A DNA stretch of 36,606 nucleotides from Candidatus Methylomirabilota bacterium (GTDB lineage: Bacteria; Methylomirabilota; Methylomirabilia; Methylomirabilales; Methylomirabilaceae). This document shows, piece by piece, positions 1,302-34,294 of this stretch. How positions within the stretch are numbered: position 1 is the first letter of the stretch; each line of letters starts with the position of its first letter. Both the position numbers and the translations under genes were made by a program. The stretch covers positions 1 through 36,606 of the forward strand of contig JAGWQH010000063.1 in assembly GCA_028870115.1 (NCBI GenBank), in the 5' to 3' direction. The notes below the pieces were generated by a model that was not told the DNA's origin, made no database searches, and was given only the letters and a program-made list of their open reading frames with translations.

Positions 1302-1335
1302 TGGGTGCTACAATAGTCCGCAGTCACCAGATTTG

Positions 1336-4165: not shown

Positions 4166-6186
4166 AGGCTGCCCTTCAGGCCGAACAGCCAGGTAATACC
4201 CGGAGCCGAAAAGCCGGCGACTTGTTGGTAATCCCTATCGAAGAGGTTCTGGATCTTTCCGAACAGTGTAAGCTCCCGCAGATGGACGGTATCCTTCAAC
4301 AGGAGGTACGAGCCCGCCAAGTCCACGGTCGTGTAGCCCTGCGCGGTCACCCGTCTGGTTTCGAAGGTGGCCGGATCGGTGAAGATATCCGGTCGATCGC
4401 CGACAAACGTTGTCGTCAGACTCGTGTGCAGGCCATGCCACACATGGTCGATGGAGAGCGTCCCAGCGTGTCGGGGTCGGCGGAGCAGGGGCTGGCCCTT
4501 TTGCAGCGCAACTGACCCGATGCCGCCATCATCAAGTACCGTGGTATCCAGAAAGGTGTAGGCGCCACCGATCGTCAGGCCATACCCTGGGCGGATTGTC
4601 GCGGCCAGCTCGACCCCCTCCGCCCTCGCTTTCTGGACATTGCAGAAGCTGGCCGGACAGCCAGGAGTAGGACGGGAAATGAAGGCGATCAAGTCTTCAA
4701 AACGGTTGTGAAAGTATGTGACTGAAACATCGGCCAGACGCTGAAGCAGTGGCTGATCCAGCCCGATCTCCCAGCTCTTGGAGCGCTCCGGTCTCAGGTT
4801 GGGATTGCCGACGACAAACTGACTCCCGTCGCCAAAGTTTTCAATGAAGCTCGGCTCCTTGATTCCTTCCCCGTAACCACCCCTCAGCTTGGTTTCCAAG
4901 TAAGGAACGATCCACGCCGCCGAGACCCTCGGTGTGACCTCAGTTCCGAAGGTACTGTTGCCATCCACCCGGAATCCCGCCGTCAGGAACAGCACTTTCT
5001 TCCAGTCGAACTGACCCTGGAGGTAGCCGGCCTTATTATTCCGTCTGGCCTCATTCGCGCTTGCAAAAGGAAAATCGGTCTCGGTGGCGGCGGCCCGCTG
5101 ATCGAACTCCTCCCGCTCTAAGGCGAAGCCGGTAGTAAATAGACCTGAGAGATCAAGAACAGTGGGGGTAGTTAGATTCCAGAAATAATCCATCGACAGG
5201 CGGCGCTCTTCATCCTTACTGTGAAAGGCGGAGAAATTGATGCCGGAAGTGAAGGGATCATCATAGGCAAAATTTCGCCGGTACCAACCGAGCTGAAGCG
5301 TCTGCTGCCACCAGGGTGTCAGTGCGTGACTGGCCTTACCGCTGACGACCAGCCGTTGCTGATCGCTTGATTGGTTCGGATCGAGCGGGAACGTGACCCC
5401 ACCGAACCGATCGCCACCGGCCCCGGTGGGAAAATTGAGGTGGTTATCGGTGTAACGGATAGCTAGACTCAGGTCCAGCGTTTTCTCAAGGGTCACGCCC
5501 ACGCGACTGCTCACAGTCGTCTCGCCAAAGTGGTTGTTGATGGGGAGGTTCCCGTTGGTATCGTTTCGACCAACACCCAGCGAGTAATCAAATTGTCCGG
5601 CCCCTCCGCTAAGATTCAACTTCTCTTCAAACGTTTTCAGGTTCCCGCCCGCGAACGAGGCCTCGACACGCGGCGTCCCCTTGCCCCGCTTCGTAAAGAT
5701 CTGGATCACCGACCCCATGGCATCCGAACCGTACAGCGCGCTCTGCGGCCCGCGAACGATCTCGATTCGCTCGATATTGTCGGTATTGAGATCGCCGAAG
5801 TCGTAGAAGCCGCCGGCGTCGTTGACCTTTACTCCGTCAATCAGCACCAGATTAAAATTGGAGTTCCCGCCTCTTGGGAACACACTCACGATGCTGCCGC
5901 GACTACTCTGCTGCGTAGTACTCAAGCCTGGGACATCCCGGAGCAGGTCTGACACCTGGGTGACCTGACGCGCCTCGATCTCCTCTTTCGTGATCACGGT
6001 AACCGATGCCGCAACCTGTTTTACGGGAACCTCGGTTTTGGTCGCCGTCACGACCACCGGCCCCAGCTCTACCGCGTCTTCAGGAGCTAACCCGAGCATC
6101 TGTCCTGACGCACTCCCCGGTTCACAGCACCACAGAATCGTCACCCACAACCATCCCTTGACTACACCGCTCCAGCGTTTCATCAT
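4162..6186 (-). CDS. btuB: TonB-dependent outer-membrane cobalamin receptor
   Basis: This is an outer-membrane beta-barrel that imports B12 with TonB energy. The product is about 674 residues, with a signal peptide (WLWVTILWCCEPGSASG) followed by a TonB-box-like stretch (VVVTATKTEVP) resembling that of E. coli BtuB. A plug domain follows (TVITKEEIEARQVTQVSDLLRDVPG, then NFNLVLIDGVKVND and RIEIVRGPQSALYGSDAMG). The barrel ends in FGLKGSL. Two adjacent ATGs (6186 and 6183) follow an AAGGGGG ribosome binding site, and 6183 has the slightly better spacing. It heads the operon behind a cobalamin riboswitch and overlaps btuF by 4 bases. It is somewhat longer than E. coli BtuB (614 residues), within family range. 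Confidence 0.93.
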   Translation of the reverse strand: MMKRWSGVVKGWLWVTILWCCEPGSASGQMLGLAPEDAVELGPVVVTATKTEVPVKQVAASVTVITKEEIEARQVTQVSDLLRDVPGLSTTQQSSRGSIVSVFPRGGNSNFNLVLIDGVKVNDAGGFYDFGDLNTDNIERIEIVRGPQSALYGSDAMGSVIQIFTKRGKGTPRVEASFAGGNLKTFEEKLNLSGGAGQFDYSLGVGRNDTNGNLPINNHFGETTVSSRVGVTLEKTLDLSLAIRYTDNHLNFPTGAGGDRFGGVTFPLDPNQSSDQQRLVVSGKASHALTPWWQQTLQLGWYRRNFAYDDPFTSGINFSAFHSKDEERRLSMDYFWNLTTPTVLDLSGLFTTGFALEREEFDQRAAATETDFPFASANEARRNNKAGYLQGQFDWKKVLFLTAGFRVDGNSTFGTEVTPRVSAAWIVPYLETKLRGGYGEGIKEPSFIENFGDGSQFVVGNPNLRPERSKSWEIGLDQPLLQRLADVSVTYFHNRFEDLIAFISRPTPGCPASFCNVQKARAEGVELAATIRPGYGLTIGGAYTFLDTTVLDDGGIGSVALQKGQPLLRRPRHAGTLSIDHVWHGLHTSLTTTFVGDRPDIFTDPATFETRRVTAQGYTTVDLAGSYLLLKDTVHLRELTLFGKIQNLFDRDYQQVAGFSAPGITWLFGLKGSL

Positions 6187-6192
6187 TCGCCC

Positions 6193-6237
6193 CCTTATCC
6201 GCGAAGGTGGTGCGTTTCCATTTTCCCCTGGATAAGG
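6193..6237 (-). promoter_or_regulatory. Predicted Shine-Dalgarno sequestering helix of the btuB riboswitch
   Basis: On the minus strand CCTTATCC (6237 to 6230), directly after the B12 box, is an exact complement of GGATAAGG (6200 to 6193). The second element overlaps the start of the AAGGGGG ribosome binding site of btuB. Pairing gives an 8-bp helix with a 29-base loop that would mask the site. No T-run terminator is visible in this leader, so translational control is the likelier mechanism. Confidence 0.55.
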
Positions 6238-6420
6238 TCTCCTGACTCGCGGATCATTGCCGACTCTGCGCCTTCCCATCCTCCGGCAAGCTCAGGACAG
6301 TGGCATTGTGCAGAGCGGCTCCCCACTCACAGTGGCGGGACCGTGCTGGCTTTGCTCCGCCGCAACATGCGGCCGACACACCAGCTTCCCTTGAATCCAA
6401 GGGCGCTCAATTCTCTCCGA
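6230..6420 (-). promoter_or_regulatory. Cobalamin riboswitch, btuB operon
   Basis: Read on the minus strand, the leader shows the cobalamin riboswitch hallmarks in order. These are AAGGGAAGCTGGTG near 6395-6380, a hairpin, then AGCCAGCACGGTCCCGCCACTGTGA, a second GCCACTG about 25 bases on (6304-6298), and the B12 box AGTCAGGAGACC (6247-6236). The 5' boundary is approximate. The ligand would be adenosylcobalamin or another cobalamin, with binding expected to lower btuB operon expression. The btuB start is about 50 bases downstream. Confidence 0.88.
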
Positions 6421-6520
6421 ATAGTTATCCGATCGTGTAGGTTTCTCTCACCCCCTTTCAGGTTTCTTGCCCACGACGGCAATGGCCCGGGCCTGCCTGC
6501 CCTTTGCGGCTGTACTCATC

Positions 6521-7435
6521 TCACTGAAGCTGGCGCGCCGCCTCCTCAGGAATCGCGCCAGGGAACAGCTCGGGGTGCAGGATCTTCGCCAACAGTTCGA
6601 GGCCATCCACGAGGCGGGGGCCGGAGCGACTGAAATAAGCGCGTGCATTGACCGCGTAGACGCGGTCGCGCCCCACAGCGGGCAACTCGCGCCAGCCCGG
6701 CAACCTCGTGAGAAGCGACAACTCTCGGATGTTCCGTTCCAGATCGAAGCCGCAGCCCATCAGGATGACAACTTCCGGCGCGTACCGAACCACCCGCTCC
6801 CACTTCATCGGGATTGACGGCTTCCCTCGCCTGCCTAGCCTGTCAATCCCTCCCGCCATCTGTACCATCTCTGGAACCCAGTGACCCGCGGCATAGATGG
6901 GTTCAACCCACTCCACGCAAAAGGTCTTCGGCCGCTCAGTCGAACCGGCGACCGCACGAACCACTAGATCGATCCGCGACTGAAGGCACGTAATCAAGGA
7001 TTCAGCCTGCCTCGCTCTGCCGGTTGCCTCCCCTACACGGCGGATATCGTTCAGGACGTCGCCCAAGTGAAGCGGAGAAAGGGAAAGCAAACGTGGCGCG
7101 CTGTCGAGTTGCTCCACCGCCCGTTTAACCTCTCGATACGGCACAGCGCAAACGTCACACAGCTCCTGAGTCAGGATCAGGTCCGGTTTGGCCTGCCGCA
7201 GCCGATCGAGGTCGATGGTGTAGACCCCTTCGCCGCGGCGAAGTTGCGCCTTGACAGCGCAATCGATTTCCGCGCTGCTCAGCATAGATGAATCAAAGAC
7301 TGACCGAATGACAATCGGCTTGGACTTGGCCTCGCGAGGAAAATTGCATTCGTGGCTGACCCCATAAAGCTGGTCGCCAAGGCCCAGGGCATAGACAATC
7401 TCGGTCGCACTTGGCAGTAATGAGCAGATCCGCAT
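6521..7435 (-). CDS. BtuF-like cobalamin-binding protein without signal peptide
   Basis: This 304-residue protein belongs to the periplasmic-binding-protein-like BtuF/FecB superfamily: MRICSLLPSATEIVYALGLGDQLYGVSHECNFP, then DLILTQELCDVCAVPY and SRSGPRLVDGLELLAKILHPELF. The ATG at 7435 is chosen because the family core begins exactly there and GTGGAGGAG lies just upstream. There is no signal peptide or lipobox, so it should be cytoplasmic, unlike BtuF. It carries a CDVC pair absent from BtuF. A second cobalamin riboswitch and an intrinsic terminator precede it, so B12 status controls it independently of the btuB operon. Plausible roles are intracellular corrinoid binding or trafficking; the exact function is unknown. 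Its 3' end points toward the btuB leader about 100 bases away. Confidence 0.82.
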   Translation of the reverse strand: MRICSLLPSATEIVYALGLGDQLYGVSHECNFPREAKSKPIVIRSVFDSSMLSSAEIDCAVKAQLRRGEGVYTIDLDRLRQAKPDLILTQELCDVCAVPYREVKRAVEQLDSAPRLLSLSPLHLGDVLNDIRRVGEATGRARQAESLITCLQSRIDLVVRAVAGSTERPKTFCVEWVEPIYAAGHWVPEMVQMAGGIDRLGRRGKPSIPMKWERVVRYAPEVVILMGCGFDLERNIRELSLLTRLPGWRELPAVGRDRVYAVNARAYFSRSGPRLVDGLELLAKILHPELFPGAIPEEAARQLQ

Positions 7436-7457
7436 GCAGGCCGCTCCTCCACAACAA

Positions 7458-7491
7458 AAAACCCCAATCCTCCGAGGAGGATTGGGGTTTT
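7458..7491 (-). terminator. Intrinsic terminator in the leader, riboswitch expression platform
   Basis: CCCCAATCCTCC (7462-7473) pairs with GGAGGATTGGGG (7476-7487). On the minus strand it is followed by a run of six T residues (7461-7456). It lies between the B12 box (about 7590) and the ATG at 7435, so it would stop transcription before the gene. It is symmetrical and also has T residues on the plus side. The position indicates a riboswitch-controlled attenuator. Confidence 0.85.
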
Positions 7492-7579
7492 CATGCCCAA
7501 ACCACACGCCAAACCTGCGCCGCGATCAACCCGGTACGCGATAAGGCCGCCCTTCCCCTCGGAAGGTCATCAGCACCCC

Positions 7580-22199: not shown

Positions 22200-22568
22200 A
22201 TGAAACGATTCTTACAGTTGCTAGGAGAGATGAAGAACTACCGACTGCCAACGGCTAAGCGTGCGCTGCAGGAGTTGGCAGCAGACGACGAGCTGGTGAT
22301 CGTCGTGCCTGAGCAATCGCTCGCAGGAGAGATACAGCAATGGGCCACCAGCCAGGGTTTTACCGTCGCCGCACCAAAGAAGATCCTGGATGGGTTAGCC
22401 CGGTGGCAACTGTCGGTCAAAAAAGCCGTACCGGCGCCTGTGGTAGAAGAAAAGCCGGCTGCGGCAGCGCCACCAGCTTCCGGCGCGCCGACCCCTGCTG
22501 CGGTATCGGTACCAGCCGCTACGCCAGCCCCTGCTGCAGCGGCCCCCGCCGACGCCGGTGCTCACTGA
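22200..22568 (+). CDS. TusA-like small protein with Ala/Pro tail
   Basis: The first about 75 of 122 residues look like a TusA/SirA fold: TAKRALQELAADDELVIVVPEQSLAGEIQQWATSQGFTV. The CPxP motif that carries the persulfide cysteine in TusA is replaced by NYRLPTAKRA, and the protein has no cysteine at all. Residues about 80-122 are an Ala/Pro/Val-rich low-complexity tail. A sulfur-transfer role is therefore unlikely; a scaffold or regulatory role is possible. The ATG at 22200 follows AAGGAGG at a longish spacing. The gene converges on, and overlaps by 7 bases, the end of the first U32 gene on the other strand. The fold call is by eye. Confidence 0.6.
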   Translation: MKRFLQLLGEMKNYRLPTAKRALQELAADDELVIVVPEQSLAGEIQQWATSQGFTVAAPKKILDGLARWQLSVKKAVPAPVVEEKPAAAAPPASGAPTPAAVSVPAATPAPAAAAPADAGAH

Positions 22569-23539
22569 CGGTGAGCGCTGGCGACAGGAGCCTTGGCCTC
22601 CGCCAGCAAGGCCAGAGTCCCCGCGTGGCGCTGCCTATCCCGCTCGAACTGGATCGTGGCTAAGCGCGCCTTCCATGGTTCGAGGTCAAACGGCTCGCCT
22701 GGGCCGCGAGCCACATAGGCGTCAAGTAGCGTACGATAGAACCTGACAATGTTTCCCATGAGCGCTGTGGTATACTCGCGGCCCTGGATTTTCATACACC
22801 GAACACCCAGATCGATCAGGCTCGGGATATCCTCCAGCAGGAAGAACGCCTCGTTCTTAAGCGCTACGCGGTCTTCCCATTTAATGTCGCCGCTGTAAAG
22901 CTGCCAGGTCTCCAGACAGACGCGGTAGTCAAGGCCGCCCCGGTTCGGACTCCCCTTGAAGAGGTCCTTACCCGCCTCGTCGATCGTACGCTCCAGCCGG
23001 GCGTATGGCGACATCCAGCACTTGCCAAGATAAGTATGGCAGGCGTTCGCATGAATCAAGACCTCGATCCCGACATCGAGTTGCGCCTGTCTGGAAAGCA
23101 GCTCCCACAAGGTCAGCTTGGTGTCGGCCACAACCTGGCAGGCACCGATCTCCCGGTAGAAGGCCACGTCGGCGTCGTTCAGGATGTTGGCCCCGATGCT
23201 TGCATGGAGGGGCAGCTCGGGAAAGCGCCGATGCACGGCCGCGATCGCGCCGATGTCGGCCATGATGGCGCCATCAACACCGTCCGTAACGAAGCGCTCC
23301 ATTCGGCTGAGCAGCGCCGGAATCTCTTTGGATTGCATGTGCGTATTGCAGGCCACCCGGAGCTTGGCATCGCCATCATGGGCAAGCCGAATCGTCTCAC
23401 GGACAGCCTCGTCTTCCATCTCAAAGGTGTCGCGGCGCCGGCTCCAGCCTCGCGGTCCCACATAGATCGCATTGGCGCCGGCCCATAAGACTTCCGCCGC
23501 CATCTCCAGATTGCCGGCGGGAGCCAGCAGCTCAATCAT
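22562..23539 (-). CDS. U32 family protein 1 (UbiU-like)
   Basis: This is a 325-residue U32-family (formerly 'collagenase') protein. It begins MIELLAPAGNLEMAAEVLWAGANAIYVG, a TIM-barrel entry like other U32 members. It carries C-x6-C in ACHTYLGKCW, further cysteines at VCLETW and VRCMKIQGRE, and the family motif KIQGREYT near the C-terminus. Characterised U32 proteins (UbiU, UbiV, RlhA, TrhP) are 4Fe-4S or iron-linked hydroxylation factors, not proteases in practice. The ATG at 23539 overlaps the preceding gene by 4 bases. It is last of three U32 genes. The third-cysteine spacing differs from E. coli UbiU, so substrate identity is open. Confidence 0.82.
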   Translation of the reverse strand: MIELLAPAGNLEMAAEVLWAGANAIYVGPRGWSRRRDTFEMEDEAVRETIRLAHDGDAKLRVACNTHMQSKEIPALLSRMERFVTDGVDGAIMADIGAIAAVHRRFPELPLHASIGANILNDADVAFYREIGACQVVADTKLTLWELLSRQAQLDVGIEVLIHANACHTYLGKCWMSPYARLERTIDEAGKDLFKGSPNRGGLDYRVCLETWQLYSGDIKWEDRVALKNEAFFLLEDIPSLIDLGVRCMKIQGREYTTALMGNIVRFYRTLLDAYVARGPGEPFDLEPWKARLATIQFERDRQRHAGTLALLAEAKAPVASAHRQ

Positions 23540-24495
23540 TGTCCCACCCCGCTCCGCTCTACCTCCGCAGTGTCCGCACTCGGGTACCTCACACCATGAT
23601 AGGCCATTCCCGATGTGCCAAAGTAAAAGCCATTGCACAGGCCGATTCGCGCATGGCGTCTGATCGTGTCCCACCATCGCCCTTTCAGACCGTCCCTTCC
23701 CGCCAAGGCAGCCTCCAGGGCCTCGCGGTAGATCCGGCCGATCTCCAGGCGGTAGGCAGGACTCTCGGTCGCCGCCTCGATCCGAAAGCAGGCGTGTCCC
23801 TCGGTCATCAGTCGCTTCAGGTGCTCCAGCAGGCATACATCCTTCCCGCTCATGACCCCCTTGCCGATCGATTTCATCGCCCAATCGCCCTGTTTCAGGA
23901 AAAGGTCCTGGCGACAAAGGGTCGGGCATGTCATCCCCCATGCCTGCTCATATTCCAAAAGCCAACAGTAGTCTGAAATGCCGAGCGGCATCTTGCCATG
24001 GACCAGCAGCTCCATCGGCAGTCCAACCTGGCGGTAGATCTCGCCAATCTCCTCCAGGCTCAGCTCGTAGTTGGGCGTAATGCGGACCGCGCCGTATCGC
24101 TTCAAGACCAGAGCTCCAATGTCGGTATAAACATTCGCGAAGCCGCCGATGTGGATAGCAAGATCGGGATGCGCCTCGTGGATAATCTTCATGACTCCGA
24201 GGTTATGGACCTCCACGGCGTCCGCCCCGTTCTCCACGGCCACTGCCACAACCTTTCGGAGTTGCGGCAGCGTGTCGTTGCGCGGCGCGGCATAGGTACT
24301 GACGTATGCCTTCTGCCCTCGGCCCTTCACGATCGCAATCGCCTCCCGCAGGTCATGGAGGCGCTCCAGGAGGTTACCCTCGTACAGCCGGCAGGTGACG
24401 TTGCCAAGGTAGACGGCATCGTAGGGGCTCAAATCCGACGCGGTGAGGTCCCGCAGATTCGAGATAGTCGTATTCAGCTCAAACGCCTGCGCCAC
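23536..24495 (-). CDS. U32 family protein 2 (UbiV-like cysteine pattern)
   Basis: This 319-residue U32-family protein starts at GTG 24495, six bases after AAGGAGGG. It has cysteines at C35 (YLGNVTC), C177, C190 and C194, with C-x12-C-x3-C in the second group. E. coli UbiV binds its 4Fe-4S cluster with C39, C180, C193 and C197, so the spacing here matches closely. UbiV works with UbiU in oxygen-independent ubiquinone hydroxylation. The remainder (GKMPLGISDYCWLLEYEQAW, RLMTEGHACFRIEA, GTSGMAYHGV) is not obviously UbiV and the C-terminus is longer, so an anaerobic hydroxylation role is inferred, not proven. It overlaps the next gene by 4 bases. No UbiT-type gene is present. Confidence 0.82.
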   Translation of the reverse strand: MAQAFELNTTISNLRDLTASDLSPYDAVYLGNVTCRLYEGNLLERLHDLREAIAIVKGRGQKAYVSTYAAPRNDTLPQLRKVVAVAVENGADAVEVHNLGVMKIIHEAHPDLAIHIGGFANVYTDIGALVLKRYGAVRITPNYELSLEEIGEIYRQVGLPMELLVHGKMPLGISDYCWLLEYEQAWGMTCPTLCRQDLFLKQGDWAMKSIGKGVMSGKDVCLLEHLKRLMTEGHACFRIEAATESPAYRLEIGRIYREALEAALAGRDGLKGRWWDTIRRHARIGLCNGFYFGTSGMAYHGVRYPSADTAEVERSGVGQ

Positions 24496-24516
24496 TATCC
24501 CTCCTTCATCCTGACC

Positions 24517-24536
24517 CCTGCCTGACGGCAGACAGG
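24517..24536. repeat. Dispersed palindromic repeat, copy C (short form)
   Basis: Arms CCTGCCTG and CAGACAGG are identical to copy A, with a 4-base ACGG centre in place of 11 bases. It lies directly after the stop codon of the upstream U32 gene and before the ribosome binding site of the next. Confidence 0.7.
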
Positions 24537-25469
24537 TCACCGGCGCGTCACCGTCCAGGAAGGTTCCAGGCAAGGCTCTGTAAAGGCCGGCAAGGGCTCT
24601 CCCGCCATCCAGGCATCGATTACGAACCGATAGCGCCGTACGAGCGGCGCGAGCAGTTCGGGTGGGAGACTCCTGCCCTGGAGCTTGACAACATCGACGC
24701 CGGCATTGAGGATATCGGCCAGGTAATTGATTGCGCTGATCTGACGGCTTGGCAAAAGCCGTGTAGCTACGCATCGCTCGCCCCGGTACAGCTCCCAGGG
24801 CTGCTCACAGATCTTGAAGCAGACCCCGGCGCCTCCCCGCTTCACGCTCCCCATCAGGCGACTTCCGCCTTTAGGTTGTGCTGCCGACGGAGCGGAATTC
24901 AGTCGATAGTAGCTTGGCATCCAGCATTTACCTAACAGGATAAACTCGTCCACCATGTGGATCATCGCCTCGATCCTCACGTCGGGAACCTGCGCGAAGG
25001 CAGCGATCTCATCAGGCATCACGGTGCCTGGGAGGACGACCGCGTCGGCCCCCAAGTCGCGGTAAAAGGCGGCATCGGCCTCATTCATGACGGCGCAGCC
25101 GATGCTGGCCGTAATGCCAAGCCGCGGGTACCGGCTGCGGAGCTCGGCCAGAAGGCCGACATCGTTTACGATGACGCCATCGATCCCCCAGTCGGTCAGC
25201 TCTCCGACCTTGTCCACAAGGTCCCGTCGCTCGGCCTGGCGAGGGATGGTATTGAGCGCCGCCTGCACGTGACGTCCCTGCGCATGGGCCGCCGCCAGAA
25301 TGTCCTGAAGCGCCAGAGAGGTCAGTTCGCTTCTTGGTCCGCCGCGACTGAAGCCTTCGAGTCCGACGTAGATAGCGTCGGCGCCGGCCTCCAACGCCGC
25401 CTGAGCCGCCTTCAGGCTGCCCGCCGGCGCCAGGAGGGCAGGCTTCGTGTTATTCAGGGTGCGCGCCAT
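24537..25469 (-). CDS. U32 family protein 3
   Basis: This is a 310-residue U32-family protein: PALLAPAGSLKAAQAALEAGADAIYVGLEGFSRGGPRSEL at the N-terminus, then IDGVIVNDVGLLAELRSRYP and the motif VVKLQGRSLPPELL near the end. Cysteines of the usual cluster are partly present (LGKCW, GVCFKICEQPW). The first cysteine of the C-x6-C pair seen in U32 protein 1 is replaced by Glu here (DEFILLGKC), so cluster binding may differ. The ATG at 25469 overlaps the end of the DUF488 gene by 20 bases. First of three tandem U32 genes; the pair UbiU/UbiV works as a complex, so three different U32 subunits may act together. Confidence 0.8.
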   Translation of the reverse strand: MARTLNNTKPALLAPAGSLKAAQAALEAGADAIYVGLEGFSRGGPRSELTSLALQDILAAAHAQGRHVQAALNTIPRQAERRDLVDKVGELTDWGIDGVIVNDVGLLAELRSRYPRLGITASIGCAVMNEADAAFYRDLGADAVVLPGTVMPDEIAAFAQVPDVRIEAMIHMVDEFILLGKCWMPSYYRLNSAPSAAQPKGGSRLMGSVKRGGAGVCFKICEQPWELYRGERCVATRLLPSRQISAINYLADILNAGVDVVKLQGRSLPPELLAPLVRRYRFVIDAWMAGEPLPAFTEPCLEPSWTVTRR

Positions 25470-25836
25470 GCTCTTCGAGCAGCGTCTTGAGGATCGAGCG
25501 GTGACAGCGGGCCTCGTCTGCGCAATAGCACCCCACGGAAAAGGCTGTGTGCCGCGAAAAGGCCGCCAGGAGGCCGAGGAGCCGACTGGCAGCAGGACGC
25601 TTCATCTCGGCCCGGTACCGCCTGACGAACGTCTGCCACTCACGCTCATCCCGAGCGTGAAGCGCGATCTTGACGAGGTCCTCCGATGGCGCCAGCTCCG
25701 GCAGCCACACGTCATAAAAGTCACGTGACGCATATTCACTTTTGGGCACTCCCCGCGGCGGACGCCGAACCGTGCCCAGGCGCAGCCCCTCGCCGGGAAT
25801 CCGAGGAGTGCCGAGTCGAACAACCCGTATCGCCAT
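25450..25836 (-). CDS. DUF488 family protein
   Basis: This 128-residue DUF488-type protein shows the family marks VRLGTPRIPGEGLRLGTVRRPPRG near the start, EYASRDFYDVWLPELAPS in the middle and the C-terminal GCYCADEARCHRSILKTLL with CxC and RCHR. DUF488 members are small, widespread and without a settled function. The conserved Cys/His suggest metal binding or redox chemistry. The ATG at 25836 has AAGGAGAG at a longish distance upstream. It starts 29 bases after the P-type ATPase and overlaps the first U32 gene by 20 bases, so it is translated within this operon. Confidence 0.85.
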   Translation of the reverse strand: MAIRVVRLGTPRIPGEGLRLGTVRRPPRGVPKSEYASRDFYDVWLPELAPSEDLVKIALHARDEREWQTFVRRYRAEMKRPAASRLLGLLAAFSRHTAFSVGCYCADEARCHRSILKTLLEEHGAHPE

Positions 25837-25865: not shown

Positions 25866-28568
25866 CTAATCCATTTCCCCGAACCATCCGCGCAGTGCCA
25901 TCCACTTGGCCGATTCTAGCACAGGCGAAATCGTAGAAGCCAACACGACGACGATAGCCCAATCCACGAGCGACAGGCTGAACGTGCTGAATGGCTTGTG
26001 CAGAAACGGCACATAGACAATAACAGCTAACGCCGCTAATCCCCATACCGTCGCCAGATTCAACCACCTATTGGCAAAGGGCTGATTCAACACTGAATGG
26101 CGGTCAGAGCGGAAGTTATAGGCCTTGCAGCTCTCAATCAACACCAGTGAAACAAAAATCATTGTCATGGCCTGTTCGATGCTCCGATCGGAGTTCAACG
26201 CCCATACAAAAAGACCCACGTTGACGGCCGCCGACCACAATCCGCCCACTATCATCACAGTAATAACAGGCCGGGTGAAGATGCCGCCGCGTGGGTTTCG
26301 CGGCTTGCGGCGCATCAAGTCTGGTTCGGACGGGTCTACGGCCAACGCCAAGGCGGGCAAGCCATCGGTAGCAAGATTGACATACAGGATCTGTACGGCC
26401 GTCAACGGTAGGGGCAGGCCGAACAATGTTGCTCCGGCCATCAAGACGATTTCACCCATGTTACATGACAGCAGGTACATCAGATACTTTTTGATGTTAC
26501 CGAAGATGCCCCGACCCTCTTCCACGGCCGCAACAATGGAAGCAAAGTTGTCGTCAGTGAGCGTCATGGCGGCGGCCTCTTTGGTCACGTCCGTACCGGT
26601 GATGCCCATCGCGATGCCGATGTCGGCCTTCCTGAGCGCGGGCGCGTCATTGACTCCGTCGCCCGTCATCGCAACAACGTGACCTTTCTTTTGCAGGGCG
26701 GTGACTACGCGCAGCTTATGCGCCGGGGATACGCGAGCATAGACGTCGATGTTCTCGACCTCGAGCTCAAACTCGGCCTCGCTCATCGCCTCCAGTTCTG
26801 CGCCGGTCACAATGCGGCCTGTCTTGAGTAATCCCAATTCGCGCGCTATCGCTTTGGCGGTCAGCGGGTGGTCGCCGGTGATCATGACCGGCTTAATCCC
26901 GGCCTGTTCGCACGTTTCAATTGCGGCCTTCGCCTCAGGGCGCGGCGGATCAATCATGCCTACCAAGCCTAGAAATGTCATGTCGTGTTCGGCGTTTTCC
27001 AGTGTCGCGCTTGGTTTGAAAGCCACCGCGAGAACCCGCAATGCCTCGCTTGCCATCCGGCGGGCTGTTCCCAAGATCATCTCCCGGCTCTCGGCGCCGA
27101 GGGCTATTTTCCCATCTGCCGTCACTTGCCGAACACACGAATCAAGAATAATTTCCGGCGCGCCTTTGGCGTAAGCTACAACGCCTCCTGACTCGCTGTG
27201 CAAAGTGGTCATGCGTTTGGTTTCGGAGGTGAAGGGGATTTCGTTCACGCGGGGGTATTCTGACTCAAGGTCGGCCTTATTCAACCCGGCTTTGGCGGCA
27301 GCAACAACCAATGCGCCCTCCGTCGGGTCGCCTTTGACGTGCCAGCGGCCATTGGCCTCGCTGTGAACGATATGCGCGTCGGAGGCAAGCGCAGCGGCGC
27401 GCAAGAGCAGTGTCAGCGGGCTGGAGGGTTCAATGGCGAGGCCATCGCGCGAGAACCGGCCGTGCGGCTCATAGCCTGCCCCGGAAACGTCCAGCATCTT
27501 CCCGGCCACAAAGATCGTACAGACCGTCATCTCGTCTTTCGTCAGTGTGCCGGTCTTGTCGGAGCAGATCACCGACGTGCTGCCGAGCGTTTCGACTGCC
27601 GGGAGACGGCGCATCAGCGCATGACGCTTGACCATCCGCTGCACGCCGATCGCGAGTGAGATCGTGACCACAGCAGGGAGGGCCTCCGGGACAACGGCAA
27701 CCGCCAGCGCAATACCGAAAATCAACATCTCAATGAAGGGTTGCCCACGATACAGGCCGATGGCGACAATGGCTGCGACGACTACGAAGGCGACCCACGC
27801 CAGCGCGTGACCGATCCTATCCAAGCTGTCCTGTAACGGGGTCCTGCCGGTTTCGACCGCCTGGAGCATCCGAGCAATCTTGCCGAACTCCGTATTCATG
27901 CCTGTCGCAACAACAACCGCGCGCGCCCGGCCATAGGTCGCGGCGGTCCCGACGTAGGCCATATTCATACGGTCGCCTAAGGCCAATTCACCGCTCGTGA
28001 GAGGCGCGGCGCATTTTTGCACCGGAACCGATTCGCCCGTCAGCGCAGCTTCTTCAATATGCAAATTAACGGCCTCAATCAATCTGACATCGGCGGGGAT
28101 TTTGTCGCCTGCTCGCAACAGGACGACATCACCCGGCACGAGGGCACGCGCCGGGATTTCAACTTCCTTCCTGTCGCGGAGGGCGGTTGCTGTCGGCGCG
28201 GTCATCTGGCGCAATGCCTCGGTCGCGCGTTCGGCCCGGTATTCCTGGACAAAACCCAAGAGCACGGCAAACAGCACAATGACGGCAATGGCGATGGCTT
28301 CAATCCCGTGTCCAAGGAAGGCGGAGAGCGCCGTCGCCGTGAGCAGAAGGACGATCAACACGTTCTTGAACTGCTCAAAAAGAATCGTCCACGGCGAGAT
28401 GCGGCTGGCGGCTTGCAGTTCATTCGGCCCATATTCCGCTAACCGTTGGACCGCTTCAACCTCTGTCAGACCGGTGGGTGTGGATTCCAGGTGAGCGAAG
28501 ACAGTTTCCCTGGGGAGGGTGTGCCAGAGGACAGGATCGAACCCCCGTCGGGATTCAGGAGGGCCCAT
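25866..28568 (-). CDS. Calcium-type P-type ATPase (P2A, PacL-like)
   Basis: This 900-residue cation pump exports ions across the cytoplasmic membrane with ATP. It has an N-terminal cation-ATPase region, the actuator loop TGES (177-180) and M4 motif PEALP (294-298). The phosphorylation site is DKTGT (D337) and the hinge is TGDGVNDAPAL. Calcium-site residues of SERCA are kept: Glu in PEALP, Asn and Glu in SCNMGEIV (M5), and Asn, Thr and Asp in NLATDGLPA (M6). These favour Ca2+ over Na+/K+, although the PEALP alanine differs from the common PEGLP. The start overlaps the FNT gene by 14 bases. A C-terminal cation-ATPase region follows M6. Confidence 0.92.
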   Translation of the reverse strand: MGPPESRRGFDPVLWHTLPRETVFAHLESTPTGLTEVEAVQRLAEYGPNELQAASRISPWTILFEQFKNVLIVLLLTATALSAFLGHGIEAIAIAVIVLFAVLLGFVQEYRAERATEALRQMTAPTATALRDRKEVEIPARALVPGDVVLLRAGDKIPADVRLIEAVNLHIEEAALTGESVPVQKCAAPLTSGELALGDRMNMAYVGTAATYGRARAVVVATGMNTEFGKIARMLQAVETGRTPLQDSLDRIGHALAWVAFVVVAAIVAIGLYRGQPFIEMLIFGIALAVAVVPEALPAVVTISLAIGVQRMVKRHALMRRLPAVETLGSTSVICSDKTGTLTKDEMTVCTIFVAGKMLDVSGAGYEPHGRFSRDGLAIEPSSPLTLLLRAAALASDAHIVHSEANGRWHVKGDPTEGALVVAAAKAGLNKADLESEYPRVNEIPFTSETKRMTTLHSESGGVVAYAKGAPEIILDSCVRQVTADGKIALGAESREMILGTARRMASEALRVLAVAFKPSATLENAEHDMTFLGLVGMIDPPRPEAKAAIETCEQAGIKPVMITGDHPLTAKAIARELGLLKTGRIVTGAELEAMSEAEFELEVENIDVYARVSPAHKLRVVTALQKKGHVVAMTGDGVNDAPALRKADIGIAMGITGTDVTKEAAAMTLTDDNFASIVAAVEEGRGIFGNIKKYLMYLLSCNMGEIVLMAGATLFGLPLPLTAVQILYVNLATDGLPALALAVDPSEPDLMRRKPRNPRGGIFTRPVITVMIVGGLWSAAVNVGLFVWALNSDRSIEQAMTMIFVSLVLIESCKAYNFRSDRHSVLNQPFANRWLNLATVWGLAALAVIVYVPFLHKPFSTFSLSLVDWAIVVVLASTISPVLESAKWMALRGWFGEMD

Positions 28569-29376
28569 CGTTCGGCCGAGGCTCGCCTCGTAAGTAGGCC
28601 ACCCAATAGACGCCGGCGACCAGCAGGGTTCCGCCGACCACGTTGCCGGCGGTCACAACGACCAGGTTTCTCGCGGCCTTGACGACCGACACCCCGCCCT
28701 CCCCATCCAAGGCGATTCCGAAGGGCAGGAAGAACCAGTTGGCGATCGAGTGCTCGAAGCCCATCGCTACGAATGCGGTAATGGGAAAGAGAATCGCAAA
28801 AATCTTGTCGGCCACGCTGCGCCCGCCCATTGCGAGCCATACCGCCAGACACACCAGCGCGTTGCACAGAACCCCGCGCGCGAAGGCCTCGATCACTGAA
28901 AGTTCGGCCTTCGTGCGAGCGATAGTGATAGCCGTCTCGCCGACAGCGCCTCCGCCAAGATCGGCAATGTCGGCCCACACGACGAGCAGCACCGTAGCCA
29001 GGCAACCGCCCACATTGCCCAGATAGGCCAGAAACCAGTTACGCATGACCTCGCGGGTACCGATCAGTCTGCTCGCCCAGGCCATGGCGATGAGGTTATT
29101 CCCGGTGAACAGCTCGGCGCCCCCCACAACGACGAGGATCAGTCCAAGACTGAAGCTTAAGCCGCCGAACAACCGCATCATGCCGAAGCCAAGGGCGGAT
29201 TTAGTCATTACGACGATGAAAAAGAGCGCCCCCAACGAGATGAAGGCGCCGGCCAGCACAGCCAGCATGAGCAGCGTGAGTGAATCGGTGCGCGCCTTCG
29301 CCACACCGAGACCCTCGACCTTCCGCGCAATCTCGCGCGGCGGATAGGCGTCACCGAAGTGCAGTTCTTTATCCAT
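28555..29376 (-). CDS. Formate/nitrite transporter (FNT) family channel
   Basis: This 273-residue membrane protein is an FNT channel, which forms pentamers and moves formate, nitrite, hydrosulfide or similar small anions. It shows about six helices, ELFTGNNLIAMAWAS with the LFTGN loop, GNVGGCLATV, and the central-pore histidine in AMGFEHSIANWFFLP. These match FocA/NirC. Which anion is carried cannot be read from the sequence. The ATG at 29376 gives the usual short acidic N-terminus; an ATG at 29418 is possible. It is translationally linked to the P-type ATPase, a pairing I do not recognise as standard. Confidence 0.88.
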   Translation of the reverse strand: MDKELHFGDAYPPREIARKVEGLGVAKARTDSLTLLMLAVLAGAFISLGALFFIVVMTKSALGFGMMRLFGGLSFSLGLILVVVGGAELFTGNNLIAMAWASRLIGTREVMRNWFLAYLGNVGGCLATVLLVVWADIADLGGGAVGETAITIARTKAELSVIEAFARGVLCNALVCLAVWLAMGGRSVADKIFAILFPITAFVAMGFEHSIANWFFLPFGIALDGEGGVSVVKAARNLVVVTAGNVVGGTLLVAGVYWVAYLRGEPRPNDGPS

Positions 29377-29475
29377 CCGCTTAGCACCCGCCAACGGAAC
29401 GGCGCCGCCTTTCGGCATCAGCCTCCATCGCTTTGTGAGGCCAAGCAATCCTGCCGAGGCCGCAAGCGCCGCAGC

Positions 29476-30027: not shown

Positions 30028-30405
30028 TTAAGGCTTGTGGCCCCGATACTGGATGCCGGGCAGCCCCTTAAAATCCGCATCCTGTGTCCACACCGTTGCC
30101 CCGTAGGCTCGGGCTGTGGCAAGAATGATGCTGTCAGCCATCGGCAGCTTGCGCTCAAGGCTGATGCGAGCGGCCAGTAGCGCGAGCCCAGCGTCGAGAT
30201 CAACCACGGTACCCTGTTGCATCATCGCCACCGCCTGGAGCGCCTGGCCCTCATCTCGTTGCTGGAGAACTCGTTTAAACACCTCGTAGAGCACCAGCGA
30301 TGGAACCAGCAACTCCTCCGTCCGTTCGATGGCCCGCGCGAAGAACGAAGCGTTCGAACCATTCGCGAAATACTCCAGCCACGCACTCGAGTCGACGACA
30401 TTCAT
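30028..30405 (-). CDS. VapC-type PIN-domain toxin
   Basis: This 125-residue PIN-domain RNase should cleave RNA, as VapC toxins do. The acidic active-site residues are all in place: D5 in NVVDSSAWLEYF, E41 in SLVLYEVFKRV, D91 in LPMADSIILATA and D114/D116 near WTQDADF. It is therefore probably active, in contrast to the remnant at 12438-12649. The ATG at 30405 overlaps the antitoxin stop by 4 bases, so the pair is translated together. Proteins of this pair type are common in accessory islands, and GC content here is lower than upstream. Confidence 0.88.
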   Translation of the reverse strand: MNVVDSSAWLEYFANGSNASFFARAIERTEELLVPSLVLYEVFKRVLQQRDEGQALQAVAMMQQGTVVDLDAGLALLAARISLERKLPMADSIILATARAYGATVWTQDADFKGLPGIQYRGHKP

Positions 30406-30608
30406 GGACGGTCCGTCTCACGCTCGACCGTCGTGGCGATGCCCTTAAGGAATCCCCGCATTTCCTTGATCGAGCGTACAGGGATGAGCTCGATGCGATC
30501 CCCGTACAGAACCGCCTGCACCTTCTGACCGGGCGACAGGCCTAGCTTTTCCCGAATCTGCTTTGGAATGACGACCTGGAATTTGGGCGAAATCGTCACC
30601 GTCTCCAT
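30402..30608 (-). CDS. AbrB/SpoVT-type antitoxin (VapB-like)
   Basis: This 68-residue protein is an AbrB/MazE-type swapped-hairpin DNA-binding domain: VTISPKFQVVIPKQIREKLGLSPGQKVQAVLYGDRIELIPV. The C-terminal tail (IKEMRGFLKGIATTVERETDRP) would block the PIN toxin. The ATG at 30608 follows GGAGGTCGTATGG. It precedes and overlaps the toxin gene by 4 bases. It should autoregulate through a promoter upstream; AT-rich TAATGTTTTACAATAACTAT lies there, without a clear operator. Confidence 0.85.
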   Translation of the reverse strand: METVTISPKFQVVIPKQIREKLGLSPGQKVQAVLYGDRIELIPVRSIKEMRGFLKGIATTVERETDRP

Positions 30609-31027
30609 ACGACCTCCATCGATACGAATAATGTTTTACAATAACTATATCGATGGCGAACCCGGGTGTCAAGATCAGCGGCTCTCGGGTGCGCGTCTGA
30701 CCGGAAGGCGTGTCCCCGTAGTTGCGAGATTCCCGATGTGTTGTTGGCTCATAGAGCCGTGATGACCAGCCGCTTGGCGAGTGTGCTCACCCGATCGAGT
30801 TCGGTCCAACAAGTAGTTCGGCCCTCGCAGGCGGCCAACTGCGAGCGAAGCGTGCAGCTCTGTTCAGCCGACCGCAGGCGGCCGGCTGAACTATGGCGCA
30901 TGCTGACCAGCCTATTACGATCACGGAGTTTCTGAAGCCAGAGCGAATTTACTTCGCTTGCCCGGTATTGGTCAGCCTGATCCGGTTAGGACCAACCATG
31001 AGCTACCCCACCGACGTCACCGGGGCG
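30609..31027. other. Intergenic region with two related hairpins
   Basis: No gene is supported here. Two imperfect hairpins, 30815-30840 and 30862-30891, share an identical 11-base core CGCAGGCGGCC (30826-30836 and 30873-30883) between their arms. Outside them I see nothing convincing. Confidence 0.4.
30815..30891. repeat. Pair of REP-like hairpins with a shared core
   Basis: The first hairpin pairs AGTTCGGCC (one bulged base) with GGCCAACT. The second pairs GTTCAGCCG with CGGCTGAAC, nine base pairs. Both contain CGCAGGCGGCC, 47 bases apart. This suggests related small palindromic repeats placed in tandem. Confidence 0.5.
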
Positions 31028-31344: not shown

Positions 31345-33012
31345 TTATGCCTTTGCCTGATCTGGCCCCCGCTGGCGGAGGAGGCGCCGGAGCAGCTTGC
31401 TGGTGCCGGGGCCGCCGGGGCCGGTAGCACGGGGCATCCGATCCACGAACTCCACCTCCCGCGGTAGTTTGTACACGGCCAACTTCCCTATGCAGAACTC
31501 GATCAGTTCCGCCTTGAGGGCTTCGGAAGGCTGGTGACCGGCTTTAAGTACAACAAAGGCCTTCGTCCGCTGCCCCATGACGGGGTCAGGCTGGCCGACC
31601 ACGCCGACATCGGCCACGGCCGTGTGGGTCAGCAGGACATCTTCGATCTCTTCAGGGCCGATCCGGTATCCGGAGCTCTTGATCAGGTCATCCTCGCGTG
31701 TGAGAAACGAGATGTAACCATCTTCGTCCATGCTGACCATATCCCCGGCGCGACACCAGCCGTCCGTTACGACGCGCCGTTGCGCTTCCGAATCGCGCCA
31801 GTAGACGGTCCCCGTTGGACCCCTGGCCAGCAACTCACCGGGTTCGCCAGGCTGACAATCTCTCCCCTCTTCGTTGACCACCCTGAGCTCGTAGCCGGCA
31901 ACGGCGGGGCCGATCGATCCCGGCTTGACCTTTCTCGGCCCGGCCGAGCTGGCAAACACGAACATCAGCTCCGTGGTCCCGAGTCCCTCAAAGATCTCGA
32001 GACCGAACCTGGCCTTCCAGTCATAATAGGTCTGAGCCGTCAACGACTCCCCGCCGCCTGTGCACAGCTTGAGCGAACTGAGGTTGTAGCGCGTGCGGGC
32101 ATCCGGTACCTGGAGCATCTTGCGGTAGGCGGTTGGGAGGGCAGAAAGGATGGTGACCTCGTGGCGATCGATCGTCTCAAACGCCGCCTCCGGCGTAAAG
32201 CGCGGCAACAAGGAGAGGGCTGCTCCGAATCGATACGGGATGGCAGCCGCGACGGAGTAACCGGCCGCCATGGCCAGGGGAGCCGGACTGAGGAGCACAT
32301 CGTCTTCTGTCACGCGCCAGCAGTATTTGCCGAAGCTGTCAGGGACGATCAGCGCCTCTTCCATGAAGTGGACCGTCCCCTTCGGCGGCCCCGTCGTTCC
32401 GGACGTGAAGAGAAGGACTGAGAGATCCATCCGATCCCGCCGTACCGGATCGCATGTCGGATCGCTCGTATTCAGAAGCGACTGGTAACTCAGATATCCC
32501 TTACGCTCGACCTCCTCCGGCGCGCCGCCCACGACAATGACATGCCTGACAGTATCAAGCAGGGGCTGCGCCTGTTCGAGTTCCGGGAGCTGTGTGGCGG
32601 CAACGATGATCGCCTTGGCCTCCGTGCTGTTGCAGATGTGCGCGATCTCGGCTCTGGAAAAGAGAATGGAGGTCGGCACGACCACCGCGCCGATTTTCAG
32701 GACCGCAAAGTTCGCCACGATCGCCGGCGGGATGTTCGGCAGGCGCAATACCACCCGGTCCGCCTCCTCGATTCCCAGCCGCCTGAGCCCGTTCCCCAAC
32801 CTGTTGACCTGATCCAGCAACGCCTTATACAGGATCTGCGTGTCCTCGAAGTAGAGCGCCGTTCGGCCGCCGTTACCAGCGGCTACTGTCTTATCCAACA
32901 ACTCCTCTGTGCTGTTGAACCGCTGAGGGAGGTGTGCCAACTCGGGAAGCGTGTAAATACGCTGCGGCCAGAGTTCTTTTGGAGGCAGGTATTCGGTAGG
33001 AATCTGACCCAT
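31345..33012 (-). CDS. AMP-dependent acyl-CoA ligase, benzoate-CoA-ligase-like
   Basis: This ANL-superfamily ligase would activate an organic acid to an acyl-AMP and then a CoA thioester. The 555-residue product has the AMP-binding P-loop LLFTSGTTGPPKGTVHF, the GLGTTELMFVF motif, and the hinge with DDLIKSSGYRIGPEEIEDVL. The usual C-terminal PxTxxGK lysine motif is altered to MPRATGPGGPGTSKLLRRLLR, where a 9-base tandem duplication adds a Gly-Pro-Gly triplet just before the lysine. General form and LSPAPLAMAAGYSV suggest aromatic acids, such as benzoate or anthranilate, but the pocket does not prove it. An IclR regulator lies directly upstream on the same strand. ATG 33012 has GGAGGAGA upstream. 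Confidence 0.86.
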   Translation of the reverse strand: MGQIPTEYLPPKELWPQRIYTLPELAHLPQRFNSTEELLDKTVAAGNGGRTALYFEDTQILYKALLDQVNRLGNGLRRLGIEEADRVVLRLPNIPPAIVANFAVLKIGAVVVPTSILFSRAEIAHICNSTEAKAIIVAATQLPELEQAQPLLDTVRHVIVVGGAPEEVERKGYLSYQSLLNTSDPTCDPVRRDRMDLSVLLFTSGTTGPPKGTVHFMEEALIVPDSFGKYCWRVTEDDVLLSPAPLAMAAGYSVAAAIPYRFGAALSLLPRFTPEAAFETIDRHEVTILSALPTAYRKMLQVPDARTRYNLSSLKLCTGGGESLTAQTYYDWKARFGLEIFEGLGTTELMFVFASSAGPRKVKPGSIGPAVAGYELRVVNEEGRDCQPGEPGELLARGPTGTVYWRDSEAQRRVVTDGWCRAGDMVSMDEDGYISFLTREDDLIKSSGYRIGPEEIEDVLLTHTAVADVGVVGQPDPVMGQRTKAFVVLKAGHQPSEALKAELIEFCIGKLAVYKLPREVEFVDRMPRATGPGGPGTSKLLRRLLRQRGPDQAKA

Positions 33013-33111: not shown

Positions 33112-33918
33112 TCAGTCGGCTAGACCGGTTGTCGTCTCATAACCGAGCCGTTCGGAGAGCTTACTCGCCGCTGTCCTGACAAGCGGGGCGAGTTCATGTT
33201 CGATCCGCTCAAGGGAGAACCGGGGGACAGGGCCAGATAGGCCGATACTGGCCACCACCTTTCGAGAGTAGTCTCTTACGGGAGCGGCAATACACCGTAC
33301 CCCCGGCTCATACTCTTCATTATCAACGGCGAACCCGAGCCTGGCCACCTCGCGGAGATGGTCCCGGAATGCCTGGGAGTCGGTAATCGTATGCTCGGTC
33401 AGTGCGCGCATCGGCTGGTGTTCAAGAATGCTGTCCAACCGGTCGGCCGACTCATAGGCCAGTTGCGCCTTTCCCGAGGCGGTGCAGTACACCGGGAGGC
33501 GTCGCCCCGGAAACGATGCGACTCGAACCATCTGGCTGGTGTCCTGAACAAGGACATAGATGACCTCCGATCCGTCCAGAACGGCAAGATAAGCGGTTTC
33601 ATCGCACTGGCCCACTAACTCTTCGATGATCGGCCTGGCCTGGCGCCGAAAACCGAGATGATGAAGAAAGACGTTGGCAACCTCGAACGGCTTGATCCCC
33701 AAGCGATAGTTGGCGGTTTTTTTGTCCTGCTCGATATAGCCCCGAACCTCAAGGGTGGCTAGAAGCCGAAAGACGTTATTCTTGGGTAGGTGAAGCTTCT
33801 CGGCGAGTTCCGTGACGCCTAACTCCCCTGTCTGATAATCGAATGACTCCAGAATGTCAAGCGCTCGATCGACGGCCTGAACAAGATATTCGGTCTTTTC
33901 TTTCTTTCGATGGTCCAT
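33112..33918 (-). CDS. IclR family transcriptional regulator
   Basis: This 268-residue regulator has the IclR winged helix at about 10-70 (YLVQAVDRALDILESF, then LGVTELAEKLHLPKNNVFRLLATLEVRGYIEQ). An effector-binding domain follows (ASFPGRRLPVYCTASGKAQLAY, FAVDNEEYEPGVRCIAAPVRD, VVASIGLSGPVPRF). IclR proteins sense small organic acids and control their catabolic genes. The adjacent acyl-CoA ligase begins about 100 bases downstream on the same strand and is a likely target. ATG 33918 follows GAGGGG at good spacing. Confidence 0.9.
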   Translation of the reverse strand: MDHRKKEKTEYLVQAVDRALDILESFDYQTGELGVTELAEKLHLPKNNVFRLLATLEVRGYIEQDKKTANYRLGIKPFEVANVFLHHLGFRRQARPIIEELVGQCDETAYLAVLDGSEVIYVLVQDTSQMVRVASFPGRRLPVYCTASGKAQLAYESADRLDSILEHQPMRALTEHTITDSQAFRDHLREVARLGFAVDNEEYEPGVRCIAAPVRDYSRKVVASIGLSGPVPRFSLERIEHELAPLVRTAASKLSERLGYETTTGLAD

Positions 33919-34294
33919 ACACCCCTCGCACACCATTCGGCACAATAAGGCAACACGTTCTTAGCACGCACTACCATCGCGTTGCCATGGACTTGATGTA
34001 AAACGGAAAGAAAAACGGTGCGACTATAAAAGGGCGTTCTATTTTTGTCAACGAAAAATTACGAGCCCTCTTCGGGTTCCCGTTAGAACACTACCGCCGG
34101 CACAGCAACACAGTGATCTTGTCGAAGGATAACAATCGTAGAATTATACTAGGAAACGGGCCGGGACAGGCCGGATCACGTAGTTATTTTTGAGGACATG
34201 GGCTGCGCCGCCGTTAGTTGGGTGCAGTACCTAGCACCTTGTCGGACAAAGCGATCAGGGCATGGACATACGATACCTGTATTGCAAAATCGTC
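33919..34294. other. Intergenic region upstream of the accessory tail
   Basis: No gene is supported. The base composition becomes AT-richer toward the right. The region separates the divergent IclR gene (minus) and the promoter at 34295 (plus). No inverted repeats of note were seen. Confidence 0.4.

Follow-up and report, generated by a model that had tools for sequence, protein, structure and literature searches.

The closest described relatives of the system reported here are the U32-family proteins UbiU and UbiV, which form a heterodimer with a [4Fe-4S] cluster in each protein and act alongside UbiT, an SCP2 protein, in ubiquinone synthesis. Each carries four cysteine ligands (C169/C176/C193/C232 in UbiU and C39/C180/C193/C197 in UbiV), and their substrates are quinone precursors (PMC6747719). 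Prephenate is reported as the oxygen source of UbiU-UbiV and as a requirement for tRNA and rRNA hydroxylation by U32 enzymes (PMC11574389; PMC6599085). Prephenate-driven, O2-free hydroxylation is known, then, for ubiquinone precursors and RNA bases. We analyzed a 36,606-nucleotide stretch of DNA from a Candidatus Methylomirabilota bacterium (contig JAGWQH010000063.1; hereafter the window) in which three different U32 genes, U32a, U32b, and U32c, lie in tandem. Below, G codes denote genomes, L codes loci, and C codes contigs; G000 is the window genome (genus Methylomirabilis, NC10). That the three genes form a conserved unit linked to an aryl-coenzyme A (CoA) ligase is well supported. Judging from sequence, we give even chances to the proposal that they encode an O2-independent, iron-sulfur, prephenate-dependent hydroxylase of an aromatic acid or CoA ester, with one V-type and two U-type subunits.

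The U32 genes and a DUF488 gene form one run on the minus strand, from 25836 to 22562, in the order DUF488, U32a, U32b, U32c:

25450..25836, minus strand: DUF488-N3a protein, 128 amino acids, an accessory neighbor
24537..25469, minus strand: U32a, UbiU-side subunit, 310 amino acids; Glu175 replaces the first ligand Cys, and C182, C217, and C221 are kept
24496..24536, minus strand: gap between U32a and U32b, 41 bases, with a small hairpin and a GGAGG ribosome-binding site for U32b
23536..24495, minus strand: U32b, UbiV-side subunit, 319 amino acids, GTG start; C35, C177, C190, and C194
22562..23539, minus strand: U32c, UbiU-side subunit, 325 amino acids; C167, C174, and C208, with Asp204 at the third ligand position

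DUF488 runs 20 bases into U32a, 41 bases separate U32a from U32b, and U32b and U32c share 4 (ATGA); these spacings agree with an initial annotation of the window. What that annotation took for a repeat between the two genes proved to be a small hairpin (predicted fold of −14 kcal/mol), and no direct repeat was found there. The window, L012, and L015 share the 41-nt length, and the shorter gap (20 to 21 nt) of L010, L011, L013, and L014 lacks the hairpin; since it is missing in several close relatives, the hairpin is not a shared part.

All three proteins belong to the U32 family, with Peptidase_U32 (PF01136) scores of 123.3 (U32b), 120.7 (U32c), and 101.6 bits (U32a), each at an E-value of 1e-28 or better, against a Pfam cut-off of 22.4 bits. 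Scores with the NCBIfam equivalog models fell far below the cut-offs: 99.6 (U32a) and 111.3 bits (U32c) with the UbiU model (NF047963; cut-off 440 bits), and 73 bits for U32b with the UbiV model (NF047965; cut-off 275 bits). The NCBIfam TrhP model gave the top score for all three (92.7 to 117.8 bits), though far under its cut-off of 534 bits. This ranking, and the fact that the characterized TrhP and RlhA are prephenate-linked U32 proteins, would favor a three-subunit RNA-base hydroxylase of the TrhP/RlhA kind. The phylogeny points elsewhere. In a tree of 156 U32 proteins, with some long branches and provisional deep joins, U32a, U32b, and U32c each formed one clade (Shimodaira-Hasegawa-like approximate likelihood ratio test [SH-aLRT] support of 100, 98, and 95, respectively). 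U32b sits on the UbiV side of the tree, and U32a and U32c group with other small U-type proteins beside canonical UbiU, apart from TrhP and RlhA. Canonical UbiU and UbiV are clades of their own (SH-aLRT of 100 each), distinct from those of the triple. Thus, none of the three falls inside the RNA-modification clades, the placement against which the initial annotation had proposed to check them. The patchy presence of the triple in one genus and its linkage to an acyl-CoA ligase and an IclR regulator (below) are also ill-suited to housekeeping RNA modification, and an RNA substrate seems to us quite improbable. A sequence search of solved structures returned MK0906 (5d88) as the sole relative, and the same U32 peptidase was the best match to the predicted AlphaFold2 structure of U32c.

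The ligand residues separate the subunits. C35, C177, C190, and C194 of U32b align with C39/C180/C193/C197 of UbiV, as the initial annotation had suggested, and all four are present in 25 of 25 orthologs. Neither U32a nor U32c matches the four-cysteine pattern of UbiU. The first ligand position of U32a is Glu (Glu175) in 24 of its 25 orthologs and Gln in one. U32c keeps the CX6C pair and the last Cys and has Asp204 at the third ligand position, again in 24 of 25 orthologs, the exception being L025 with Cys. The loss of a cluster cysteine noted earlier for one subunit is therefore real and affects two, U32a and U32c. Carboxylates are plausible iron-sulfur ligands in both proteins, whose sequences offer them at these positions; the cluster loops in the AlphaFold2 models have predicted local distance difference test (pLDDT) values below 50. 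These natural Cys-to-Glu and Cys-to-Asp swaps are a ready-made probe of the role of each cluster, an open question for UbiU-UbiV.

Replacement of a ligand in two of three subunits could also mark a changed chemistry, with the triple acting as a non-hydroxylase in an aryl-CoA pathway, for example, as an iron-sulfur dehydratase, reductase, or lyase. The CoA-ester context in relatives would agree with such a role, and IspH-type iron-sulfur dehydroxylation is the chemical reverse of hydroxylation (PMC11574389). However, U32b retains the full UbiV ligand set, and the prephenate-pathway genes found beside some triples (below) fit the prephenate-donor chemistry of U32 hydroxylases; we consider a non-hydroxylase unlikely.

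Across 60 searched genomes, the same ordered triple (a-b-c) was present in 18 of 35 Methylomirabilales genomes and in one Rokubacteriales relative. An additional scan of GTDB genomes recovered it from a Rokubacteria metagenome-assembled genome (MAG) and several Acidobacteria, for a total of about 30 genomes in two phyla (Methylomirabilota and Acidobacteria); because the same order recurs so widely, the triple is far beyond chance. The three subtrees have 14 of 23 clades in common, and the pairwise distances of U32a, U32b, and U32c correlate at 0.79 to 0.89 (L025 left out as odd). These common clades and correlated distances indicate that the three genes have largely been inherited together, as a unit. 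The single U32 genes of G018 and G027 may be broken copies of the triple. DUF488, by comparison, adjoins the triple in two genomes only, the window genome and G010 (L015/L034). We rejected it as a partner, and it is not part of the conserved unit; of the neighborhood proposed in the initial annotation, the U32 triple is conserved elsewhere and the DUF488 association is not.

A contig filed under a Thermoplasmata MAG (L067) carries a triple that groups with those of Acidobacteria, and the contig is probably mis-binned or transferred. Archaeoglobales (L065, L068, L069) have a related triple whose first gene is short and whose third protein has Asp for Cys at the first ligand position.

The conserved neighborhood of the triple is that of an aryl-CoA ligase:

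31345..33012, minus strand: AMP-forming aryl-CoA ligase (anthranilate/benzoate-CoA-ligase-like), the constant partner of the triple
33112..33945, minus strand: IclR-family regulator, upstream of the ligase
28555..29448, minus strand: FocA-like formate/nitrite family transporter, between ligase and triple, conserved within the genus only
25866..28568, minus strand: P-type ATPase (Ca-type), between transporter and triple, kept in some Methylomirabilis species
L013:12773-14059, L013:6786-7049, and relatives: F9, F15, and F5, small conserved operon proteins

By sequence, the ligase is nearest to anthranilate- and benzoate-CoA ligases. Within the genus, its ortholog occurs in all seven genomes with the triple and in none of the eight without it; in the order Methylomirabilales, the counts are 16 of 18 versus 1 of 17 (Fisher p of 6e-7, before kinship correction). 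Outside the genus but within the order, the ligase adjoins the triple, together with the IclR regulator, tandem family III CoA-transferases, and F9, F15, and F5, and several relatives have an IclR homolog directly before U32a. The CoA-transferase of these relatives is nearest to a benzylsuccinate CoA-transferase subunit. In the Acidobacteria loci L050 and L051, one operon holds the triple, two CoA-transferases, F15, F9, and the ligase (61% identity), as well as an ABM-domain protein and an amidohydrolase. F5 and F15 have zinc-ribbon-like cysteine pairs, and none of F9, F15, and F5 attains a Pfam cut-off. CoA-transferases were rejected as obligatory partners for the window genome. No paper associating U32 proteins with chorismate mutase or with ligases for aromatic CoA esters was found in the literature library searched.

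Other genes of the window were noted in passing. Between triple and ligase lie the P-type ATPase, the FocA-like transporter, a small YnfA-like protein, and a PIN toxin-antitoxin pair (30028-30672). A promoter-like TTGACA-17-TATAGT occurs at 30672-30644, and the identical hexamer pair recurs at 34051-34023, upstream of the IclR gene. On the other side, a small conserved gene with a weak TusA match (22200-22568, plus strand) is convergent with U32c and overlaps its end by 7 bases; it adjoins the triple in several genus members. At 333-7507, a TonB-like protein, an ABC importer, periplasmic binding proteins, and a TonB receptor resemble, by eye, a cobalamin uptake set.

The route to prephenate is opened by 3-deoxy-D-arabino-heptulosonate 7-phosphate (DAHP) synthase and closed by chorismate mutase. 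Directly upstream of U32a, L051 and L053 encode both enzymes as one fusion protein, DAHP synthase joined to a chorismate mutase of type II; L050 has the two domains in two reading frames, and in L067 a chorismate mutase alone precedes U32a. As L050, L051, and L053 are related, the link amounts to about two independent observations. It lends genomic support to prephenate as the oxygen donor. In Methylomirabilota, chorismate mutase was rejected as a neighbor: the one hit per genome belongs to a frame of roughly 370 amino acids on a contig other than that of the triple.

The same genes admit a different account, in which an aromatic acid is made de novo from shikimate, activated by the ligase, and decorated by the U32 proteins into a secondary metabolite or cofactor, prephenate as oxygen donor being incidental. 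Gene clusters for aromatic natural products often contain a duplicate DAHP synthase, and the L051 operon contains an FlK-family hotdog thioesterase, with a similar sequence in L050. However, the fusion ends at chorismate mutase and so stops at prephenate, the Methylomirabilis loci lack it, and the IclR/MarR regulators and a nearby branched-chain amino-acid-type periplasmic binding protein suggest a response to an outside compound. We judge de novo synthesis to be a possible but doubtful explanation, less probable than a prephenate-dependent hydroxylase.

The initial annotation had proposed a three-subunit hydroxylase with a DUF488 partner, acting on ubiquinone or another isoprenoid. Of this, the UbiU/UbiV-type, multi-subunit, O2-independent hydroxylase is retained as the most probable reading; the DUF488 partner and the substrate are not. 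For a ubiquinone-like or plastoquinone-like precursor as substrate stand the position of U32b nearest the UbiV clade and of U32a and U32c nearest the UbiU clade, the quinone precursors hydroxylated by UbiU-UbiV themselves (PMC6747719), and the unusual methyl-plastoquinones of another nitrogen-cycle phylum (PMC12324825). However, all three proteins are far under the UbiU/UbiV equivalog cut-offs, and no SCP2/UbiT domain was found in the five genomes searched (G000, G005, G025, G062, and G069). The quinone locus (an MqnP/UbiA-like prenyltransferase and a UbiE/MenG methyltransferase) is on contig C97, unlinked to the triple, and occurs both in genus members that have the triple and in those that lack it, G005 being one of the latter. 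No quinone gene was recognized near any triple locus; the conserved neighbors are the aryl-CoA ligase, the IclR regulator and, in some lineages, CoA-transferases. Searches for SCP2, UbiA, and MpqE gave no link to the triple, and a ubiquinone or methyl-plastoquinone role was rejected. A ubiquinone role is not supported by these sequence comparisons, and quinone hydroxylation in general appears improbable.

We return to hydroxylation of an aromatic acid or CoA ester. From what sequence establishes (the conserved triple, its co-inheritance, the ligand pattern, the ligase linkage, and the chorismate-mutase/DAHP-synthase linkage in four related loci), we infer the chemistry, cluster type, stoichiometry, and substrate that follow; hydroxylation and its donor are proposed because of what is known of the family together with the chorismate-mutase link. 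The three proteins would act as one functional unit resembling UbiU-UbiV, with U32b as V-type and U32a and U32c as U-type subunits. U32b would hold an all-cysteine [4Fe-4S] site; in U32a and U32c, three Cys and a conserved acidic residue as fourth ligand could give a differentiated cluster or an open iron. A natural guess is that U32b pairs with U32a and with U32c, and that each of these two U-type proteins determines a single position or step. The substrate would be an aromatic acid or the CoA thioester made by the linked ligase.

Several observations weigh against this proposal. G019, G022, and G039 (a Rokubacteriales relative) have the triple without the ligase, and in five Rokubacteriales genomes the ligase occurs without the triple; no substitute oxygenase was recognized among ten proteins scanned beside the ligase module in such Rokubacteriales. 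Some 5.5 kb separate the triple of the window from the ligase upstream of it, a stretch that holds the transporter, the ATPase, and the PIN toxin-antitoxin pair, and G000 has no CoA-transferases. Prephenate-supplying genes beside the triple were seen only in Acidobacteria-type loci. Moreover, the expense of a prephenate for every hydroxylation is too high for bulk catabolism, and a catabolic substrate would therefore fit the donor poorly; low-flux biosynthesis or detoxification fits better.

A bolder form of the proposal, which we hold only tentatively, is that the triple represents a new class of O2-independent aromatic-acid (aryl-CoA) hydroxylase with three U32 subunits, two of them with three-Cys, one-carboxylate iron-sulfur clusters; its operon may carry its own prephenate supply, and a wider rule may apply in which one V-type subunit serves one to three U-type subunits. 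If a three-subunit version does operate beside an aryl-CoA ligase, the known reach of prephenate-driven, O2-free hydroxylation would come to include aromatic acids, both in soil Acidobacteria and in organisms at the center of anaerobic methane oxidation.

Other multi-U32 systems came to light. The window genome has a second cluster (cluster II; L008:14081-17963 on C12 and L009:173-3711 on C105) in the order V, U, U, a substrate-binding-protein-like gene, U, and then a phosphoenolpyruvate (PEP)-synthase-like gene; this cluster is also kept in G019 and several other genomes of Methylomirabilis (L026, L027, L028). Aromatoleum, Ferrovum, and Sideroxydans (L070, L071, L074-L078) have related U-V-U-x-U clusters, and the Aromatoleum and Sideroxydans genomes concerned also carry canonical UbiU/UbiV. 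L072:80-5950 and L073:8844-14714 encode V, U, a radical S-adenosylmethionine (SAM)/SPASM protein, a class IV aminotransferase, a second U, and a hemerythrin-PAS protein. In deltaproteobacterial MAGs (L056-L066), V-U pairs directly follow a Roadblock/LC7 protein and a Ras/Arf-like GTPase. The number of U-type genes per V-type gene is one in UbiUV and the deltaproteobacterial MAGs, two in the triple, Archaeoglobales, and L072/L073, and three in cluster II. One V-type gene with one, two, or three U-type genes suggests the hypothesis that the V-type protein is the common partner across the loci examined.

Cluster II and the Aromatoleum, Ferrovum, and Sideroxydans clusters resemble the triple in having one V-type and several U-type genes in one run. 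They differ in having three U-type subunits, with a CX3C first pair in Methylomirabilis, separate clades, and substrate-binding-protein-like and PEP-synthase-like genes, with no aryl-CoA ligase. TrhP and RlhA have the U32 domain with a CX6C...CX3C region in common with the triple, but in E. coli they are single-protein enzymes with long C-terminal parts and no acyl-CoA neighbors, and the triple lies elsewhere in the tree. With anaerobic aromatic-acid pathways, the triple has in common a ligase nearest to benzoate/anthranilate-CoA ligases and, in relatives, tandem family III CoA-transferases nearest to benzylsuccinate CoA-transferase, whereas no ring-reducing benzoyl-CoA reductase was recognized near it; to our knowledge, the pathways described so far use molybdenum hydroxylases or oxygenases in place of a U32 triple. 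UbiU-UbiV (E. coli YhbU/YhbV) is the closest parallel: U-type and V-type genes lie side by side, U32b has the UbiV ligand set, U32a and U32c are on the UbiU side of the tree, and, by analogy, iron-sulfur, prephenate-dependent, O2-independent hydroxylation would be expected of the triple. The triple is set apart by two U-type subunits rather than one, by separate clades and scores far below the equivalog cut-offs, by a last ligand near C208/C221 versus C232 in UbiU, by Glu or Asp for one ligand in U32a and U32c, and by an aryl-CoA context without UbiT.

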